In this document: positions 4,032 to 11,916 of the stretch, one piece after another
How positions within the stretch are numbered: position 1 is the stretch's first letter
Layout of the letters: each line of letters opens with the position of its first letter
The notes under the pieces: model-generated
Database searches by the model: none
What the model was told of the DNA's origin: nothing
The model's input: the letters and a program-made list of their open reading frames with translations, nothing else
From: Bacillota bacterium
GTDB lineage: Bacteria > Bacillota > Sulfobacillia > Sulfobacillales > JAIMBI01
DNA length: 32,569 nt
Direction of reading: 5' to 3'
Assembly (NCBI GenBank): GCA_021820465.1
Contig: JAKADP010000020.1
Coordinates: 1-32,569 of the forward strand
Made by a program: the position numbers and the translations under genes

Positions 4032-4385
4032 GTGGCGGTGGACGGAGACTTGACGGTGGCGGACGTGCAGCGCGCGGTGGATCAGTGGATTCGCCGCTTT
4101 GAAGAGGGCTACTTTCCGCCGCTGGCCATGGTGGCCCGCCTGGCGGAGGAAGTGGGAGAGCTGGCGCGCGAGGTGAACCACACCTACGGGCCCAAGCCCA
4201 AGAAGCCCGAGGAACCTGGGGGATCGGTGGCCGAAGAGCTGGGGGACCTGCTGTTTGTGCTGGCTTCGATGGCCAATGCCCTAGACATCAACCTGGCCGA
4301 GGCCTTTGTCGCCGTCATGCAGAAATTCGAGGAACGCGATCATGACCGCTGGACCCCCCGGGGGGATGCCCCCGGCGCCGGATAG
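4032..4385 (+). CDS. MazG-like nucleotide pyrophosphohydrolase
   Basis: A 117-residue single-domain protein of the all-alpha NTP pyrophosphatase superfamily, the group that includes B. subtilis YpjD and MazG. These enzymes hydrolyse (d)NTPs to the monophosphate and pyrophosphate, mainly for house-cleaning. The metal-binding motif is visible as EEVGELAREV followed by EELGDLLFVLASMAN, giving the ExxE...ExxD set of acidic ligands. The C-terminal KFEERDHDRW is typical of the YpjD-like group. The start is GTG 4032 behind AGGGAGGGC. It is probably transcribed with rlmH, 10 bases upstream. Substrate preference cannot be read from the sequence. Confidence 0.88.
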   Translation: MAVDGDLTVADVQRAVDQWIRRFEEGYFPPLAMVARLAEEVGELAREVNHTYGPKPKKPEEPGGSVAEELGDLLFVLASMANALDINLAEAFVAVMQKFEERDHDRWTPRGDAPGAG

Positions 4386-4390
4386 CGGGC

Positions 4391-4438
4391 GGGCGGCGGG
4401 GGCTGCGACGCGCTCGCCGCAGGACGCGTCCGCCGCCC
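4391..4438. terminator. GC-rich inverted repeat between convergent genes (possible bidirectional terminator)
   Basis: GGGCGGCGG (4391-4399) pairs perfectly with CCGCCGCCC (4430-4438), and an inner ACGCG/CGCGT pair can extend the fold. It sits exactly between the MazG-like gene (plus strand) and the small gene ending at 4440 (minus strand). There is no T-tract on either side, so it is not a textbook intrinsic terminator. It could still protect 3' ends or slow polymerase. Confidence 0.4.
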
Positions 4439-4439
4439 C

Positions 4440-4781
4440 TCACGCTTCTGATGTCCGCCAGGCCTGGTCGATGCGGGCATTCCACTGCTCCCACTCCGGA
4501 TCCGCCGCGCCTCGCTCTACGCGCCAGATGAGATACCACAGGATGGCCCGGCAGTCCTCGGGGGACAGCCCCAATTCCTGCGCCATCTCGGGCAGACGGG
4601 GCCACTGCTCGAGGCGCTTCAGCACACTCGGGAGATCGGGCCCGTCCGGGCGGACGTACGGCAAGCCCTCCTGGACGGAGGGCGCCTGCCCCACACGCCG
4701 GAAAATGACCCACAGCGGGAAGCGGGGGTCGCTGCGACAATCCTCCCAATAGGCGGTGCGCAGTTCGTCCTCGCCGTTCAT
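4440..4781 (-). CDS. hypothetical protein, 113 aa, second gene of a two-gene unit
   Basis: I do not recognise this family. The start is ATG 4781, which overlaps the TGA of the preceding gene in an ATGA junction, so translation of the two is coupled. The protein is acidic and rich in Trp and Pro. An N-terminal stretch has PRFPLWVIFRR. The middle helices read LPEMAQELGLSPEDCRAILW, which looks like a helix-turn-helix-type arrangement, followed by an amphipathic C-terminal helix. It has two cysteines, no signal peptide and no membrane segment. The unit is divergent from the dsrE/sHdr locus, so a connection with sulfur metabolism is possible but unproven. The longer open frame upstream of 4781 is a shadow of the neighbouring gene. 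Confidence 0.7.
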   Translation of the reverse strand: MNGEDELRTAYWEDCRSDPRFPLWVIFRRVGQAPSVQEGLPYVRPDGPDLPSVLKRLEQWPRLPEMAQELGLSPEDCRAILWYLIWRVERGAADPEWEQWNARIDQAWRTSEA

Positions 4782-5128
4782 GAGACCGGCTCGGAGGCGC
4801 TCGGCGCCTGCGGGGGGGACACCAGCTCGCCCAGCTCGCCTTCCGCCCCGGTCTTGCCATGGAGATACAGCACATAAGGGGCGTCGTCCCGCTGGATCTC
4901 CAGCTGCCAGTGCCCCACCTGCGGAGGCCGGTCCGGGCCTTGCGGGGTGAGTTCGGCGCGCATGTGCACCTGATAGCCGCTGACAGGATGGTCGTACGGC
5001 AAAAACTCCATGCGGCCCATGTTGATGCGCCTGAGTGCCTCGTTGATGGGGGCCAGCATCTCCGCCATGGCGGGAAACAGCTCCCCCGCTTGAGACAGCA
5101 AGATGGACTGGCTCGTCTTCATACCCAT
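4778..5128 (-). CDS. hypothetical protein, 116 aa, first gene of a two-gene unit divergent from dsrE
   Basis: No family recognised. I place the start at ATG 5128, behind AAAGGGGG about seven bases upstream; a second in-frame ATG at 5122 is also possible. The N-terminal half is helical (SQAGELFPAMAEMLAPINEA). The second half alternates hydrophobic and charged residues like a small beta-sheet domain (VGHWQLEIQRDDAPYVLYLH) and ends in a disordered Pro/Ser tail. There is no cysteine, signal peptide or membrane segment. It overlaps the downstream 113-residue gene by four bases. Its promoter must lie in the 226-base spacer shared with dsrE, which carries a CsoR-like palindrome, so both directions may share a regulator. 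Confidence 0.7.
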   Translation of the reverse strand: MGMKTSQSILLSQAGELFPAMAEMLAPINEALRRINMGRMEFLPYDHPVSGYQVHMRAELTPQGPDRPPQVGHWQLEIQRDDAPYVLYLHGKTGAEGELGELVSPPQAPSASEPVS

Positions 5129-5294
5129 ACGGGTGCCCCCTTTTATTCCCCGCGCAGTGCCCAAAGCTCCTCGGCGCCATCCTAGCACGACCGGCCGCCG
5201 CCGCCTGCGACCATTGGACCCATCGCGGCGTCCGTTGGTTTGAAAAAATATTGCGCCAATGGCTTGCGCCTCCCCCGGCGAAGGTGTAGATCCG

Positions 5295-5324
5295 TAGTGA
5301 TACCAGTGGGGGTATGGGTATAAG
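5295..5324 (+). promoter_or_regulatory. putative promoter with CsoR/CstR-like operator in front of dsrE and the sHdr locus
   Basis: The 16-mer ATACCAGTGGGGGTAT (5300-5315) is an ATACC-N6-GGTAT palindrome with a central G-run, followed at once by another GGGTAT. This resembles operators of the CsoR/CstR family (DUF156), whose CstR branch senses persulfides and polysulfides. A -10-like TATAAG (5319-5324) lies 31 bases before the dsrE start. A weak -35-like TAGTGA (5295-5300) sits 18 bases upstream, so the palindrome would fill the spacer between the boxes. No DUF156 regulator is encoded in the window. A ten-base match is not rare by chance, so position and sulfur context carry much of the argument. 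Confidence 0.4.
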
Positions 5325-5354: not shown

Positions 5355-5822
5355 GTGCAGCAAGATCGGCTGGCCATCGTCTGTTCCAAGGGGTCTTTGG
5401 ACATGGCCTATCCACCATTTGTCCTGGCGACCGCGGCAGCGGCGATGGACATGGACTCGATGCTGTTTTTCACGTTCTGGGGGCTCGATATCATCAACCG
5501 CCACAAGATCGATTCCCTGGACATCTCGATTGCGGGCAATCCCAGCATGCCGTCCATGGCCAAAGTGGCCGGCATGGTCCCAGGGGGGACGCGCATGGTG
5601 TCCACGATGATGCGCACCCAGTTTGCCAAGGCGAAGGTGATGTCCATTCGAGAGTTTGTGGGCACGGCGCACGAGGTGGGCGTCCACATGGTGGCCTGCC
5701 AGATGACGATGGACGTGATGGGGATGAAGCGCGAGGACCTGATTCCCGAAGTGGAAGATGTTGTGGGGGCGGCCACATTCCTGGACTACGCCCGCGACGC
5801 CAAGATCCAGCTGTTCGTGTAA
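5355..5822 (+). CDS. DsrE-like sulfurtransferase (COG2210-type), first gene of the locus
   Basis: A 155-residue DsrE/F-fold protein of the kind that accompanies sHdr clusters. Such proteins accept sulfane sulfur as a cysteine persulfide and exchange it with TusA in the cytoplasm. The conserved segment ACQMTMDVMG places the likely active Cys at residue 115; a second Cys is at residue 10 near the end of the first strand. The start is taken as GTG 5355, eight bases after AGGGAGG. The upstream in-frame GTG at 5325 lies in the promoter region and lacks a ribosome site. A hairpin terminator follows the stop directly, so dsrE may be made in excess over the hdr genes. It belongs with TusA (13153) and the second DsrE (13457). 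Confidence 0.9.
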   Translation: MQQDRLAIVCSKGSLDMAYPPFVLATAAAAMDMDSMLFFTFWGLDIINRHKIDSLDISIAGNPSMPSMAKVAGMVPGGTRMVSTMMRTQFAKAKVMSIREFVGTAHEVGVHMVACQMTMDVMGMKREDLIPEVEDVVGAATFLDYARDAKIQLFV

Positions 5823-5898: not shown

Positions 5899-6588
5899 AT
5901 GCAGCAGCCGATGAAGCAGGCTTACGCGGACGTGCCGGTGGAAGAGAAGACGCGCCTCTACCGCGAGGTCGTGCAGGATGCGCGCTTTGACACCTATCTT
6001 TACGGGTGCTATGAGTGCGGGATCTGCGTCGCGGCCTGCCCGTCAGCCCGCTTCTACGACTTCTCTCCCCGCAAGATTGCCCAGGCGCTGGCCCGCGAGG
6101 ACGTCGATCTGGTGTACGAGCAGATGAACGACGACGTGTGGAACTGCTCGCAGTGCTTTTCCTGCCTCCGCTGCCCCCGCGGGAACAACCCGGGCGGCCT
6201 CATCACCATCATGCGCGAGGTGGCGGTGAACAACGGGCTGCGCACCACCAAAGAGGCGCTCGCGGGCTATACCCGCATCATTTACAAAATCATGACCACC
6301 GGCACGCAGGTGTCGCCCGACATGCTGCAGGAGGACGCATTCCCCGACTGGGGCCCGCAAGTGAAGGAAGTGGCGGACCACCTCGCCGTGTGGCGGCGGG
6401 CGCTGCCGCCGGAGACCATGCACACCACGGCCCTCTCCTGGGAAGTGGAGGAGCGCACCATGCGGGAGCTGTACGCCATCTGGAAGTGGACCGGCACGCT
6501 GGACATGATTGCACAGCTGGACGAGGGCCTCCACGACATCATGGAGGAAATCATGGACGACGCCCTGGAGGACAGCGGCATTGCGTGA
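5899..6588 (+). CDS. hdrC1: sHdr complex iron-sulfur subunit HdrC1
   Basis: A 229-residue HdrC-type protein of the sulfur-oxidising heterodisulfide reductase-like (sHdr) complex, which turns protein-bound sulfane sulfur into sulfite in the cytoplasm. HdrC subunits pass electrons between the flavin of HdrA and the HdrB catalytic subunits. The first [4Fe-4S] site is Cys37, 40, 43 and 47 (CX2CX2CX3CP). The second is Cys83, 86, 89 and 92 with CX2CX2CX2CP spacing, one residue shorter than the classical motif. The C-terminal half is helical and acidic. The start is ATG 5899 behind a GGGGGGAG ribosome site. It opens the hdrC1-B1-A-hyp-C2B2 gene order that defines the system. Confidence 0.93.
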   Translation: MQQPMKQAYADVPVEEKTRLYREVVQDARFDTYLYGCYECGICVAACPSARFYDFSPRKIAQALAREDVDLVYEQMNDDVWNCSQCFSCLRCPRGNNPGGLITIMREVAVNNGLRTTKEALAGYTRIIYKIMTTGTQVSPDMLQEDAFPDWGPQVKEVADHLAVWRRALPPETMHTTALSWEVEERTMRELYAIWKWTGTLDMIAQLDEGLHDIMEEIMDDALEDSGIA

Positions 6589-6631
6589 CGGCAGGTTCTC
6601 GGGCTGACTCCAGCCCCGAAGGGAGGATATC

Positions 6632-7858
6632 ATGGCCACATTGACGCCGGAGAGCACCAAAAATGACCGAACGGTGCCCGTGCGCGGCACCTCGGTGGAA
6701 ACCACGAAGACGTTTCGCCCTGACCCGGAGGAGGCGCCCGAGGAGGATCTGCGCGAGGCGGTGCTCCAGCTTGAGCGCGAGGGCGAGTGGATCGTGCAGC
6801 GCGTGCCCGAGCCGTATTATGAAGCCCCCACCAAGTACGGGCGGATGAAGAAGATCCCGTACGAGCGCACGTGGCACCACAAAAGTTGCGGGCAGTGCGG
6901 GCACATCCCCGGGTATTCGACGTCGATTTTTTGGCTGAATCGCGTGCTGGGCTACGACTACTTCGACCCCCGCGACCAAACGTCGTGCACGGCGTGGAAC
7001 TACTACGCCTCCGCGACGTCCAATCAGGCCGCGCAGGCCGCCGTGGCGATGCGCAACTTCGCCGCGGCCTACGAGACCGGATACTTTCCGCTCATCCACT
7101 GCGGCACCAGCTTTGGGCACTACAAAGAAGTCCGGCATGAGCTGGTGCATGACCACGCGCTGCGGCGCCAGGTGCGGTCGATCATTGAGCGGCTGGGGCG
7201 GCCGTTCGTGATGCCGGAGGAGATCGTGCACTACAGCGAGTGGATGTACGCCGTTCGCGACCAGCTCCAAGCACGGGTGGTGCACGACCTCAGCTCCATC
7301 GTGTCGACGGTGCACCCCGCCTGCCACTACTACAAGCTGCAGTCGGGCGACGCCATCTATGACCCGGAAATCTATGGCGGCCAGCGCACGGCGGTGGTGA
7401 CCGGCGTGGTCCAGGCGCTGGGGGCGCAGGTGGCCGACTACTCCACCTGGTACGACTGCTGTGGGTTCGGGTTCCGGCACATCTTGGTGCAGCGGGACTT
7501 CACCCGGTCGTTTGCCACCCTCCGCAAAATCGAGGTCATGAAGGAAGAAGCCAATCCGGACGTGGTGCTGACCCACGACACGGGCTGTGTGACGTCGCTG
7601 GACAAGAGCCAGTTTGCCGCCCAGGCCCACGGGCGCAATGTGGGGGTGCCGGTGATGTCGGAGTCGCAGTTTGCGGCGCTGGCCATGGGGGCCCACCCGT
7701 TTCGCGTGACCCAGCTGCACTGGCACTCCACGGACTACCGGCCGCTTCTGGCCAAGATGGGCATCGATGCCGAGCGGGCGTGGGCCGAGTTTCAAGAGGA
7801 CGTGAAGCAAATCGAGGCAGGCACGATGGACTATCTCACGTGGGAGGCCGTGCTTTAG
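6632..7858 (+). CDS. hdrB1: sHdr complex catalytic subunit HdrB1
   Basis: A 408-residue HdrB-like subunit with CCG-type cysteine motifs, which in methanogen HdrB hold non-cubane [4Fe-4S] clusters at the disulfide site. The second motif is clear: Cys231 (VHPACHYYK), Cys276-Cys277-Gly (DCCGFGFRH) and Cys319 (TGCVTSLDKSQ). The final CxxC is reduced to one cysteine. The N-terminal half has Cys86 and Cys89 (CGQCGHIPGYST), Cys119 (SCTAWNYY) and Cys157 (HCGTSFGHYK), a degenerate first motif. The first ~75 residues are a charged, probably flexible extension. The start is ATG 6632 behind GGGAGG. A GC-rich hairpin can form in the spacer at about 6603-6620. In the sHdr model HdrB1 works with HdrC1 and HdrA. 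Confidence 0.92.
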   Translation: MATLTPESTKNDRTVPVRGTSVETTKTFRPDPEEAPEEDLREAVLQLEREGEWIVQRVPEPYYEAPTKYGRMKKIPYERTWHHKSCGQCGHIPGYSTSIFWLNRVLGYDYFDPRDQTSCTAWNYYASATSNQAAQAAVAMRNFAAAYETGYFPLIHCGTSFGHYKEVRHELVHDHALRRQVRSIIERLGRPFVMPEEIVHYSEWMYAVRDQLQARVVHDLSSIVSTVHPACHYYKLQSGDAIYDPEIYGGQRTAVVTGVVQALGAQVADYSTWYDCCGFGFRHILVQRDFTRSFATLRKIEVMKEEANPDVVLTHDTGCVTSLDKSQFAAQAHGRNVGVPVMSESQFAALAMGAHPFRVTQLHWHSTDYRPLLAKMGIDAERAWAEFQEDVKQIEAGTMDYLTWEAVL

Positions 7859-7874
7859 GCCAGGCAGCACCAGG

Positions 7875-7896
7875 AGCAAAGGAGGAGCAAAGGAGG
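7875..7896 (+). repeat. 11-bp tandem duplication carrying the hdrA ribosome site
   Basis: AGCAAAGGAGG occurs twice in perfect tandem (7875-7885 and 7886-7896), so hdrA has two consecutive Shine-Dalgarno sequences. Only the second is correctly spaced (6 bases) from ATG 7903. It looks like a slippage duplication that may tune translation of the flavoprotein. Confidence 0.85.
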
Positions 7897-7902
7897 CGGG
7901 TT

Positions 7903-8964
7903 ATGGCGATGGCGGATCGCGTGCTGGTGGTGGGGGGAGGACCGGCGGGGCTCGAGGCGGCGCGGGGCATCGCGGACTTAGGGACGCCGGTGTTGCTGGT
8001 GGAGGCCAAAGACACGCTGGGCGGGACACCCTGGGAGTCGTACGCCACGCTCACGCCACACTTGGCGCCGACACGCGAGCTGATGGCGGAGGTCAAGGGA
8101 GCCGTGGAGAGCCATCCCTTGATCGACGTGCGCACCGCGACGCGGGTGGTGGCGAGCGAAGGCGGCGCCGGGAACTTTCAGGTCACGCTGGAGCATGGCG
8201 GCGCGCGGGTCGTCGAGGCGGCGGGCGCCGTCGTGGTGGCCACGGGCTTCCAGCACTTTGACCCGGGCCGCGAAACCCAAATGTATGGGTACTACGAGTA
8301 CGACGACGTCATCACCCTGGTGGACGCCGAGCGCATGATGCAGGCGGGCCAGTTTGTGCGCCCCTCCAATGGCGCGCCACCCCGCTCGGTCGCGTTCATC
8401 CAGTGCGTCGGGTCGCGCGACCGGCGCATCGGCAACCAGTACTGCTCGAAAGTGTGCTGTGGGATTGCGTCCAAGCAGTCCATCGAGGTCAAGCACCTCG
8501 TGCCGGATGCGAAGGTGTTCATCTTCTATATCGACATGCGGATGTACGGGTTCTGGGAGGACCAGCTGTACTGGAAGGCCCAGGAGGAGCACAAGGTCAA
8601 CTACATTCGCGGCATCGTGACGGAGGTGATCAAGAAGGGCGATCAGCTGCTCATCAAGGGCGAGGACACCACCATGGGCCGGCCCGTGGAGGTCCCGATG
8701 GATCTGGTGGTGCTGTCGGTGGGCATGGAGCCGTCGGCGGGCACGCTGGAGATGGCGCGCATCTTCCAAATCCCGCGCGAGCCGCATGGCTTTCTGGCCA
8801 CCGTGGGGGAGCCGCTCGACACGGTGACCACGCCGGTGCCCGGGGTGTTTGTCGCGGGGGCGGCGGCCGGGCCCAAGGACTTGGAGGACACGGTGTCGAT
8901 GGGCGGCGCCGCCGCGATGCGCGCCGTCAGCCTGCTGCGGCGCCTGGCCGCCCAGCCGGCATGA
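7903..8964 (+). CDS. hdrA: sHdr complex flavoprotein HdrA
   Basis: A 353-residue HdrA of the short sHdr type, the FAD-binding core of the complex and its likely electron branching point. The Rossmann motif is VVGGGPAGLEAA near residue 10, followed by the VLLVEAK strand and a second flavin segment VVVATGF. The HdrA signature with clustered cysteines is present as IQCVGSRD then YCSKVCCGIASKQ; these are candidate [4Fe-4S] ligands. The C-terminal PGVFVAGAAAGPKD is the usual FAD-contacting GD-box variant. It lacks the extra ferredoxin domains of methanogen HdrA. The start is ATG 7903; the open frame extends upstream but has no better ribosome site. The stop overlaps the hyp start (ATGA). Confidence 0.94.
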   Translation: MAMADRVLVVGGGPAGLEAARGIADLGTPVLLVEAKDTLGGTPWESYATLTPHLAPTRELMAEVKGAVESHPLIDVRTATRVVASEGGAGNFQVTLEHGGARVVEAAGAVVVATGFQHFDPGRETQMYGYYEYDDVITLVDAERMMQAGQFVRPSNGAPPRSVAFIQCVGSRDRRIGNQYCSKVCCGIASKQSIEVKHLVPDAKVFIFYIDMRMYGFWEDQLYWKAQEEHKVNYIRGIVTEVIKKGDQLLIKGEDTTMGRPVEVPMDLVVLSVGMEPSAGTLEMARIFQIPREPHGFLATVGEPLDTVTTPVPGVFVAGAAAGPKDLEDTVSMGGAAAMRAVSLLRRLAAQPA

Positions 8965-9668
8965 GTCCGGTGGGCGGCCTGGTGGTGGACGGGGAGGCCG
9001 TGCAGGAGTTCCTGGACAAAGCCGAGCCCCTGCTGGAGCCTCCGGTGCAGACCGCGCTGGATGCGGCGCTGCACCGGCGCACCGACCGCGTGCACCGTGA
9101 GGACATCGGGTGGGCGGCCCGGTGGGCGCTGGCCCCGGTATCGCGCCGAGTCAGCCCGGCCGAGCGGCTGCGCTGGCAGCCGGAGCTGGAGCCCATCTGG
9201 GCACTGGCGGCCGCGGGGGACGGCGAGGGGCTGCTGTCGCGGTTGGCCGAGCGGCCCACAGCGCCGGACTGGCTGCTCGATTGGGCCACGTACTGGCTGA
9301 ACATCTACGCACCGGAATGGCCGTGGTGGGGCCGGTGGGTCTATCGCCGAGAGGGCGGGACCGGGGCTCTGCCGCTGGTCACCGGCGATCTAGACGGACT
9401 GCGCGGCGCAGGCCTCGTGGAGGCTTATGCCGCGATCCGGCAGGACGTGCGGTTTCTGGGCTCGGTGCTGGATAGCACGCGGCGCCTGACGGCGGTGTCG
9501 GATGAGCACCGGCCGCTGGTGGCGCTCGGAGCCGTGTATGCGGTGTACATGTTCACCATGGCGGCTTGGAAGCTGACCGAAGAATTCACGCGGGTGTTTC
9601 CCCCGTTCCCCGTGGTGCTGCAGACGTTGTTGGGCGTAAGGCGATGGGAGGCGATGGAGCGTGGCTGA
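8961..9668 (+). CDS. sHdr-associated protein of unknown function (Hyp)
   Basis: A 235-residue protein at the position of the conserved Hyp gene between hdrA and hdrC2 in sHdr clusters. Its function is not known. ATG 8961 overlaps the hdrA stop by four bases. It contains no cysteine, so it cannot ligate an iron-sulfur cluster. The notable feature is a tryptophan-rich stretch with seven Trp between residues 104 and 126 (W104, 108, 112, 120, 122, 123, 126). This may be a protein-protein or membrane-surface contact. A moderately hydrophobic segment near residue 185-200 (VALGAVYAVYMFTMAAWK) could be a buried or membrane-associated helix. Strict conservation of gene order suggests a structural subunit of the complex. 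Confidence 0.88.
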   Translation: MSPVGGLVVDGEAVQEFLDKAEPLLEPPVQTALDAALHRRTDRVHREDIGWAARWALAPVSRRVSPAERLRWQPELEPIWALAAAGDGEGLLSRLAERPTAPDWLLDWATYWLNIYAPEWPWWGRWVYRREGGTGALPLVTGDLDGLRGAGLVEAYAAIRQDVRFLGSVLDSTRRLTAVSDEHRPLVALGAVYAVYMFTMAAWKLTEEFTRVFPPFPVVLQTLLGVRRWEAMERG

Positions 9669-10929
9669 GAAGGCGCAGGCCGTCGAAGGGGAGACGGTGA
9701 TGGTGGACGGCGTGGCATTGGCGCCGCAGTGGAGCCGCATGTTTGAGCCGCGGGCCATCACTGAGTATGACTTGTCGGTGCTGGACGACATCACCGCCAT
9801 CGGCGGCGCCGAGTCCCTGGGGTGGTGCTATCAGTGCGGCAAGTGCACAGCCGTGTGCCCGGTCGACACGGTGGGCGATTACTCGCCGCGCAAGGTGTTT
9901 CGCCGCACACAGCTGGGCGCCTCGCTGCTGGACAGCCCGGACCTCTGGCTGTGCACCACCTGCTCCAACTGCCTGCGCGTGTGTCCCAAAGAGGTCAACA
10001 TGATTCAAATCATGCCGGCCGTGCGCGAGAAGGCGGTGGCGGAGGGCCAGGCACCCCAAGAGTTGCTGTCCGCCTTCGAAAATACGGCGCGCTACGGCAA
10101 TCCCCTAGGGGAGCCCGCCCGCAAGCGGGCCGATTGGGTGAAGCAGGCGGGCGTGCCGGTGCCCATCATGAGCCAGCATCCCGACCCGGTGGAGGTGCTG
10201 TGGTTCGTCGAGTGCTATCCCGCCTACCATCCCCGAGGCCAGGAGGCGTCCGTCGCGCTGGCCCGCATCTTGAGCACCCTCGGCGTGGACTTTGGCATTC
10301 TGGGGCGGGAGGAAAAGTGCTCGGGGGACTCGCAGCGCATGGCGGGCGAGGCGGGGCTCTTTGAGATGCTGGCGGAGCACAACGTGAAAGTGCTGTCGCA
10401 GTACGACTTCCGTGAAATCTTGGTCACCGACCCCCATGCGTACAACGCGCTGCTGCATGAGTACCCGAAGTTTGGCGGCGAGTGGCCCACCCGCCACTAC
10501 ACCCAGTTCCTGGCCCCGCGGATCGGGGAGATGGCGTTCACGCGCGAGCTGCCTTGGCGCGTCACGTTCCACGATCCCTGCTATCTGGGCCGCCACAACG
10601 GTGAATATGAGGCGCCGCGACAGCTGCTGCAAGCCATTCCCGGTCTCCAGCTGGTGGAGATGGGCCGGTGCCGCGAAAACGCCTACTGCTGCGGCGGCGG
10701 GGGCGGCGGCATGTGGATGGACAGCTTTACCGCCCAGTTCACCAGCATGCGCCTGTCCGAAAAGCGGGTGCTGGAAGCTATCGAGTATGGAGCTGAGGTG
10801 CTGGCGGTCACCTGTCCCTATGAAGTGTCGCGGTTTGAGGACGCGGTGAAGTCGACGGGCAACACGGGTCGGCTCCAGGTGATGGACATTGCGGAGCTCC
10901 TGGCCAAATCCCTGGCGCTGGTGGACTGA
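9661..10929 (+). CDS. sHdr complex fused HdrC2-HdrB2 subunit (HdrD-like)
   Basis: A 422-residue polypeptide joining a ferredoxin-type HdrC part to an HdrB part, the HdrD architecture. Two [4Fe-4S] sites are Cys56, 59, 62, 66 and Cys98, 101, 104, 108, both CX2CX2CX3CP. The C-terminal CCG2 motif is complete at its core: Cys307 (HDPCYLGRH), Cys343-Cys344 (CCGGGGGGMWMD) and Cys385 (TCPYEVS). The first CCG motif is degenerate, with Cys185, Cys220 in KCSGD and no terminal CxxC (TDPHAYNALL instead). In the sHdr clusters I know of, hdrC2 and hdrB2 are separate genes. The C-terminal half closely resembles EtfD (16182) of the same locus. GTG 9661 overlaps the hyp stop by eight bases. Confidence 0.91.
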   Translation: MAEKAQAVEGETVMVDGVALAPQWSRMFEPRAITEYDLSVLDDITAIGGAESLGWCYQCGKCTAVCPVDTVGDYSPRKVFRRTQLGASLLDSPDLWLCTTCSNCLRVCPKEVNMIQIMPAVREKAVAEGQAPQELLSAFENTARYGNPLGEPARKRADWVKQAGVPVPIMSQHPDPVEVLWFVECYPAYHPRGQEASVALARILSTLGVDFGILGREEKCSGDSQRMAGEAGLFEMLAEHNVKVLSQYDFREILVTDPHAYNALLHEYPKFGGEWPTRHYTQFLAPRIGEMAFTRELPWRVTFHDPCYLGRHNGEYEAPRQLLQAIPGLQLVEMGRCRENAYCCGGGGGGMWMDSFTAQFTSMRLSEKRVLEAIEYGAEVLAVTCPYEVSRFEDAVKSTGNTGRLQVMDIAELLAKSLALVD

Positions 10930-10964
10930 TTGACCCATGAATTCGACTCGAGGGGGAGGACGTC

Positions 10965-11438
10965 ATGAGCGGAGCCACGGACGGGGGGCACGACGTGAAC
11001 ACCGTGAATGGGTGCCACTTGCCCGCCGACTTGCTGTACTGGCCGGAAAAGCACGTGTGGGTGCGGGGCCCGGACCCCGACGGCGTGGTGGAGGCAGGCC
11101 TCACCGATGTGGCCCAGCACCTGGCCGGCAAAATCGTGGTGGTCAACCTGCGCGCCCTGGGCAAAACCCTCGTTCGCGGGAAAAGTGCCGGGACGCTGGA
11201 GTCAGGCAAGTGGGTGGGAATCATCCCGACCCCCGTGGCCGGCGAAGTGGTCGCTGTCAATGAGGCGCTCAAAGCAGCGCCAGACACGGTCAACCGCGAT
11301 CCCTACGGCGCGGGGTGGCTGATCCGCATCAAGCCCACGGCGTGGGACGTGGATCGCGAGCAACTGGCGGGGGGGCCCGACGGCCTCGCGCGCTATCGCG
11401 AGCTGTTGGAGCGGGACGGAATCCACTGCGCGAGCTAG
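10965..11438 (+). CDS. lbpA1: lipoate-binding protein LbpA, copy 1
   Basis: A 157-residue GcvH-like lipoate-binding protein of the LbpA type, which is tied to sHdr sulfur oxidation rather than glycine cleavage. The lipoylated lysine is Lys82 in LESGKWVG. The hammerhead fold is marked by the early YWPEKHVWVRG segment and the late VNRDPYGAGWLIRI segment. Its C-terminal tail ends in a cysteine four residues from the end (GIHCAS), a feature shared with copy 2. Known LbpA proteins are thought to carry the sulfur or electron-bearing lipoyl group for sHdr. The start is ATG 10965 behind GGGGGAGG. It lies 35 bases after hdrC2-B2 and 16 bases before lbpA2. Confidence 0.94.
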   Translation: MSGATDGGHDVNTVNGCHLPADLLYWPEKHVWVRGPDPDGVVEAGLTDVAQHLAGKIVVVNLRALGKTLVRGKSAGTLESGKWVGIIPTPVAGEVVAVNEALKAAPDTVNRDPYGAGWLIRIKPTAWDVDREQLAGGPDGLARYRELLERDGIHCAS

Positions 11439-11454
11439 AAACGGAGGGGAGGGC

Positions 11455-11916
11455 ATGGCCTTCGTCTTTGCCTGTGAACTGCCCGATCATCTGTGGTACC
11501 GCGTCGACCAGGATGTGTGGCTGGAAGAGCGGCCCGACGGCACCGTGCGGCTCGGCATGACCGATCCCGCGCAGACGCGGGCCGGCAAGCTCCTGTACCT
11601 GCGCGTCCGAGCCAACAAGACGGTGCGCGCGGGCCAGAACGTCGCCACGGTGGAGTCGGGCAAGTGGGTGGGTCCCGTGCCCGCCCCGCTCCCCGGCAAG
11701 GTGGTGGACGCCAACCCGGCGGTGCTGGAGGACCCGTCCCTGGTAAATCGCGACCCCTATGGCGCCGGGTGGCTGCTCTCATTTCGGCCCGACCTGGGCC
11801 GCGAGGCCTGGGCGGCCAGTGGGCTCCAGCACGGACTGGACGCGGTCGATCCGTACCGGGTCAAGCTCCAGGCCGAGGGCCTCACGTGCGTGCGGTGCGC
11901 GGATCCCAGCCCCTGA
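11455..11916 (+). CDS. lbpA2: lipoate-binding protein LbpA, copy 2
   Basis: A 153-residue paralogue of the preceding gene. The lipoyl-lysine is Lys70 in VESGKWVG. It shares the VNRDPYGAGWLL block and a cysteine-containing tail (LTCVRCADPSP) with copy 1 but is otherwise clearly diverged. The two copies are therefore not a recent duplication and may have separate partners or steps. Tandem lbpA copies are known in some sulfur oxidisers. The start is ATG 11455 behind GGAGGGGAGGG. The lipoate ligase that can modify both follows 50 bases downstream. Confidence 0.93.
   Translation: MAFVFACELPDHLWYRVDQDVWLEERPDGTVRLGMTDPAQTRAGKLLYLRVRANKTVRAGQNVATVESGKWVGPVPAPLPGKVVDANPAVLEDPSLVNRDPYGAGWLLSFRPDLGREAWAASGLQHGLDAVDPYRVKLQAEGLTCVRCADPSP

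Follow-up and report, generated by a model that had tools for sequence, protein, structure and literature searches.

The stretch of 32,569 nucleotides analysed here (contig JAKADP010000020.1 of a Bacillota bacterium from the order Sulfobacillales; hereafter the window) carries an sHdr locus that begins with dsrE2 and continues, on the same strand, with genes for Fe-S/HdrC-like, CCG/HdrB-like and Pyr_redox_2/HdrA-like proteins, an ORF without a Pfam match, HdrC2/B2-like genes and two GCV_H lipoate-binding-like proteins, the sHdr gene names being those that we presume from position (Table 1). A two-gene unit, X and Y, diverges from dsrE2; neither product matches a Pfam family, nor that of X an NCBIfam family, and in relatives a DUF156 gene comes after Y on the same strand. 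An ORF at 4315-4875 was considered as the second divergent gene and rejected in favour of the frame at 4440-4781. X remains beside dsrE2 even in loci that have neither the operator nor the regulator described below.

Table 1. Features of the dsrE2 promoter region and the adjoining genes in the window
Feature	Positions	Strand	Basis
Y, second divergent gene, overlapping the stop of X by a few bases	4440..4781	-	frame reading
X, divergent gene of no known family	4778..5128	-	kept beside dsrE2 across the order
O2, second probable operator, ATACCCATACGGGTGC, two mismatches	5121..5136	.	genus alignment
Likely -35 element, TTGCGC	5264..5269	+	alignment with relatives
Likely -10 element, TAGATC, 7 bp upstream of O1	5287..5292	+	inferred by alignment; weak alone (shuffle frequency 0.09)
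O1, predicted operator, ATACC-N6-GGTAT palindrome	5300..5315	.	predicted from sequence
Third half-site, GGGTAT, in tandem, 6 bp on from O1	5316..5321	+	sequence and genus alignment
dsrE2, opening the sHdr locus, with a GTG start	5355..5822	+	PF13686, E 7.5e-46
sHdr genes after dsrE2	5899..11916	+	Pfam matches

The palindrome O1 (ATACCAGTGGGGGTAT), in which six bases separate the arms ATACC and GGTAT, lies 39 bp upstream of the GTG start of dsrE2 (5355) and is present exactly as a preliminary description of this DNA had claimed. It is the sole exact match in the window, where allowing up to two mismatches gives six matches against 3.77 in shuffled sequences, and the 2.88 Mb genome holds two exact copies against none in the reversed control; the one further copy, for which a search had been proposed, is found 67 bp upstream of a single-domain rhodanese gene. 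From base composition one would expect 0.008 exact copies in the window and 0.7 in the genome, and scarcity by itself is weak evidence; we regard the palindrome as more than chance because of its position in relatives, the related genomes retaining it, as the preliminary description had proposed to check. Across seven genomes of the window's family, exact palindromes with the N6 spacer number 27 against one in the reversed control, those with N7 three against three and those with N5 three against seven; across 42 genomes of the order, the corresponding figures are 227 against 81, 110 against 90 and 83 against 90. N6 is the enriched spacer among the three, and N5 and N7 are not enriched. It is extremely improbable that O1 is a functionless product of chance, for although composition alone could supply nearly one exact copy per genome, the sister genomes keep the palindrome at the same position while the bases between its arms change, the enrichment is specific to N6 and the sites stand before regulon genes.

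The sequence GGTAT recurs at 5317-5321, which would allow a 22-bp reading, ATACC-N12-GGTAT. This was dropped, and since N6 is the enriched spacing the outer arm is taken instead as a third half-site, of which GGTAT is kept in two other genomes of the genus (G001 and G003) and appears as GGGAT in a third (G002). Outer relatives carry extra half-sites with a period of six, for example ACACCTGTACCGGTATTGGTGT in G009, an arrangement that would suit binding by two tetramers. An Rfam scan gave no match.

The preliminary description had placed O1 between a -35 and a -10 box, and here the comparison with relatives gave a different picture. The would-be -10, TATAAG at 5319-5324, is not conserved in the three sister genomes and was rejected, and no conserved -10 overlaps or follows the palindrome; instead, a conserved pair of the form TTGC(G/A)(C/T)-N17/18-TA.... 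lies upstream of it in the sister genomes. In a search that demanded TTG at -35, all 16 site-bearing dsrE2 promoters showed a TTG-starting -35, a spacing of 17-18 bp and a TA-starting -10, the end of which lies 7-19 bp upstream of the operator. The sigma-70 consensus score is 9/12 in seven of these promoters and 6/12 in the window's own, and, taken promoter by promoter, 0.6-15% of shuffled sequences score as high; as the single scores are modest against shuffles, the case for the promoter rests on its repetition. Because this conserved promoter (5264-5292) precedes the palindrome, O1 most likely occupies about +1 to +22, with the transcription start expected near 5299, a position that would suit a repressor blocking RNA polymerase at the start. 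An inverted repeat around CCAATGG/CCATTGG (5209-5239 and 5256-5262), partly conserved in the genus and possibly an activator site, lies immediately before the likely -35.

On the divergent side, O2 spans the start codon and ribosome-binding site of X. Within it, ACCCATACGGG is invariant in all four genomes of the genus, in which X itself is 65-89% identical, and in G001 the site is an exact ATACC-N6-GGTAT. The earlier suggestion that the divergent unit is also under operator control is therefore plausible, given an O2-like site at X in 4/4 genus genomes and an exact one in one of them, if less certain than control through O1.

Exact N6 sites across the family indicate which genes such control might embrace. 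Twenty of the 27 precede genes that were identified by homology and make up a predicted regulon, namely dsrE2 (3), X (1), rhodanese (6), DUF302 (4), MBL-fold (5) and a DUF156 gene (1), at distances of about 5-100 bp, or about 330 bp from the domain in the DUF156 case. The seven without a homology assignment comprise three inside ORFs, one in a repeat array, one ~180 bp before an ORF, one directly before an ATPase-like ORF and one, in G006 C99, upstream of a gene whose product falls in no known family and by eye resembles that of the gene divergent from a DUF156 gene in G025. The MBL-fold regulon protein matches Pfam Lactamase_B and falls below the cut-off of the NCBIfam model for the Blh sulfur dioxygenase, so that 'persulfide dioxygenase type' is an interpretation only. 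In the window's own genome the site of the DUF302 gene has N7 spacing and that of the MBL-fold gene one mismatch. Single-base near-matches number 19 in this genome against 13 in the reversed control; since this is barely above the control, a regulon scan by near-matches is unreliable, and the one-mismatch scan was abandoned as too noisy except for the DUF302/MBL-fold locus, which homology confirmed.

Three smaller observations concern these sites. The N7 spacer of the DUF302 promoter (G000:C66:19482-19498, ATACCCGTGGGGGGTAT) is N6 in G001 and G003 and reflects either a change in the length of the G-run or an assembly slip. The unknown-family protein carries a GVRYLGFPGG motif (L230 2931-3903; L214 2058-2501), and in G025 its gene diverges from a DUF156 gene of the YWD clade (defined below), while in G006 it stands behind an exact site. 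In G004:C131 (L213 1732-2627), an exact palindrome that looks like a chance occurrence belongs to a CRISPR-like array whose repeats read as SIPAHAGEP.

Searching the window's genome for DUF156 genes, as the preliminary description had proposed, found three with PF02583, of which two are of metal-sensor type and one belongs to what we call, after its N-terminus, the YWD clade, whose feature is a C-x23-C cysteine pair. A tree of 107 DUF156 domains, those in the fetched loci and a part of all DUF156 matches, separates 49 of metal-sensor type from 58 of the YWD clade with a support of 99, and C-x23-C is found in 12 of 12 aligned YWD members and in the protein of the window's genome. Of the 58 YWD-clade genes 25 have the exact N6 palindrome in the 400 bp before them, and of the 49 metal-type genes none, with none in either group in the reversed control; these are tree-based counts, a cysteine rule having divided the set 57/50 by putting L083 among the metal type. 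The association gives a Fisher value of 1e-8 with kinship ignored, and as eight of the 25 palindrome-bearing genes are close relatives from one genus the effective number is smaller, ten genera being represented. The remaining 33 of the 58 YWD-clade genes are without an exact upstream site, and none was found within 400 bp upstream of the candidate regulator itself, the YWD-clade gene at C76:18320-18589 on the minus strand, which is unlinked to dsrE2 in this genome as in all four genomes of the genus. Its protein scores 60.4 bits against PF02583 (cut-off 22.8; 59.7 in the genome search), which places it in the family, and the monomer model of its Sulfobacillus harzensis relative has the three-helix fold (pLDDT 84.8), the best 18 structure matches of this model being chains of InrS, CsoR, CstR and FrmR.

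The distribution of site and regulator in relatives points the same way. Matches to dsrE2 were found in 40 of the 61 genomes searched, and 30 loci (L019-L048, the window's own included) were fetched; once one partial gene and one locus with 18 bp of upstream sequence had been dropped, 28 upstream stretches were examined, and inspection found the site in 16. Ten of these 16 have a YWD gene no more than 3 kb upstream of dsrE2, on the divergent strand and as a rule behind X; an eleventh has it at a distance of about 8 kb, and G020 and the four members of the window's genus show no linkage between the YWD gene and that dsrE2 copy. A YWD gene of the sHdr-linked type accompanies 16 of 16 loci with the site against 1 of 12 without it, a co-occurrence that tracks genus lines and does not amount to 28 independent cases. 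When a weight matrix built from 41 sites, dsrE2 promoters excluded, was applied to the 150 bp before dsrE2, the five genomes of the window's family all reached the floor of p 0.005, and their best match was the aligned site; among the outer site-bearing genomes 7 of 11 gave p<0.05 and the rest 0.05-0.19, against 0 of 12 of the others. The dsrE2 sites of the outer genomes are degenerate (p 0.19 in G035), and for G037 the register of the best match is shifted. Several genomes have two or more YWD paralogues, any of which might be the one that binds at dsrE2 there. A cultured acidophile that comes from mine tailings, S. harzensis DSM 109850 (PMC8489842, in excerpt), also has the linked arrangement, with X and a YWD gene beside dsrE2.

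A different family of regulators might be expected at such a locus. In Hyphomicrobium, sHdr and Sox genes are under the ArsR-type repressors sHdrR and SoxR (excerpts of PMC10451225 and PMC12423496, in whose available text neither CsoR nor CstR is mentioned). These exert sulfane-sulfur-responsive control over sHdr of the kind proposed here, although as proteins they are unrelated to the DUF156 family, and the window's genome has five matches to HTH_5. None of these is on the window's contig (C122), so no ArsR-type regulator accompanies the locus, as had been noted before; it is DUF156 genes that flank dsrE2, and they are themselves marked by the same palindrome, which makes an ArsR-type site very unlikely.

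Within the DUF156 family, the effector has to be considered separately. Most members are metal sensors, and both metal-type genes of the window's genome adjoin what, by eye, appear to be metal exporters, so that copper or nickel might be the effector at O1, with the sulfur genes drawn into the regulon to protect thiols. We consider this unlikely, in that the motif is confined to YWD genes in the comparison above and the regulon genes that could be assigned include no recognisable exporter. The ligands of copper CsoR are Cys-His-Cys, and in the YWD clade, the candidate included, the His and second Cys aligning with this copper site are replaced. The operators and the fold are nonetheless alike: CsoR proteins bind TAC/GTA pseudopalindromes as two tetramers, and the ATACCCC..GGGGTAT sites of copper CsoR resemble the ATACCC-N-GGGTAT seen here, with TAC-X9-GTA there against TAC-X8-GTA in O1 (PMC3902906, in excerpt).

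A better-surviving alternative, which we would still rank as possible rather than probable, is that the effector is general thiol oxidation, with disulfide formation, and not persulfide, as has been suggested for TTHA1953 of Thermus thermophilus. This CsoR-family regulator of Sox, with Cys39/Cys68, gave no response to NaHS in vitro; in its reduced form it binds DNA best, and a mutant with both cysteines changed to alanine is unresponsive to oxidation (PMC10318464, in excerpt). Like the candidate, it is a DUF156 regulator of energy-yielding sulfur oxidation, unlinked to its targets, with repeated TAC/GTA triplets in its operator. It differs in cysteine spacing and target (x28 and Sox, against x23 and sHdr) and in operator, its consensus being TACNNTACNNNNGTANNGTA with a period of 5 against tandem TACC/GGTA half-sites with a period of 6, and by eye neither O1 nor the sites of relatives are of the TACNNTACNNNNGTANNGTA type. 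Against thiol oxidation, the YWD regulon is one of sulfane-sulfur handling (rhodanese, the MBL-fold protein of persulfide-dioxygenase type, sHdr), and no classic peroxide genes were recognised in it.

Closer in function is CstR, to which the preliminary description had assigned the regulator. CstR of Staphylococcus and Enterococcus shares with the YWD clade the DUF156 fold and two conserved cysteines, as does the Bacillus licheniformis protein YrkD, which is CstR-like and represses sqr-pdo until sulfane sulfur releases it; CstR represses genes of sulfide oxidation and detoxification such as persulfide dioxygenase (PMC9918477, in excerpt), a likeness to the YWD regulon, in which sites stand before rhodanese and MBL-fold/DUF302 genes. 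CstR serves sulfide detoxification, however, whereas the YWD regulon includes the energy-yielding sHdr locus, and in CstR the cysteines joined by sulfur bridges are Cys31 and Cys60 (PMC9774590, in excerpt), a C-x28-C spacing, against C-x23-C in the YWD clade. The earlier assignment thus stands for the DUF156/CsoR family, given the link between site and clade, and falls for CstR membership, which we reject on cysteine spacing, CstR being set apart by its published cysteine positions as the 107-domain tree holds no CstR sequence. The YWD clade appears to work like CstR, YrkD and TTHA1953, with the cysteine spacing of neither Cys31/Cys60 nor Cys39/Cys68.

From the site, its conservation, the regulon and the link to the YWD clade, all read in the DNA, we put at roughly 0.8 the probability that O1 is the operator of a YWD-clade DUF156 repressor, the C76 gene product, that is released by sulfane sulfur and governs a coordinated regulon. 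Binding at O1, repression, cysteine chemistry and effector are what we infer, and the cycle would run as follows. The reduced repressor would bind over the transcription start of the dsrE2-sHdr unit and, at a second site, over the start of the gene X, blocking both this and the divergent unit; sulfane sulfur, as persulfide or polysulfide, would modify the two conserved cysteines, the repressor would leave the DNA, and the sHdr, rhodanese, DUF302 and MBL-fold persulfide-dioxygenase-type genes would be switched on together. It is very probable that the candidate senses reactive sulfur, and the content of the regulon points to persulfide. With somewhat less assurance, we favour a broader reading in which the C-x23-C clade is the sulfane-sulfur switch of the order of Sulfobacillus, joining energy-yielding sHdr oxidation and persulfide detoxification in one regulon through operators of 2-4 half-sites at six-base spacing.

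To our knowledge, sHdr regulation is known through ArsR-type repressors alone, and in the literature searched (subscription papers and preprints lying outside it) no report was found of a DUF156 regulator linked to an sHdr locus. In acidophilic Bacillota of the Sulfobacillus group, a CsoR-family repressor with cysteines unlike those of CstR seems to take this part, and as S. harzensis DSM 109850 has the linked version the idea is directly testable in a cultured species.

Other dsrE2 loci of the order differ from this pattern. In L083 and L085 (G020:C118 and G026:C198) a YWD DUF156 gene follows a dsrE2 of a second locus kind, the site being absent upstream in that of G026. In the Sulfobacillus genera g7 and g8 (L042, L047, L036, L037, L040 and L041), the dsrE2 promoters are without ATACC-N6-GGTAT and by eye carry other palindromes in a like place, GACTA-N6-TAGTC, GTCTA-N6-TAGAC and CTAGT-N8-ACTAG, as if a different regulator had taken over.
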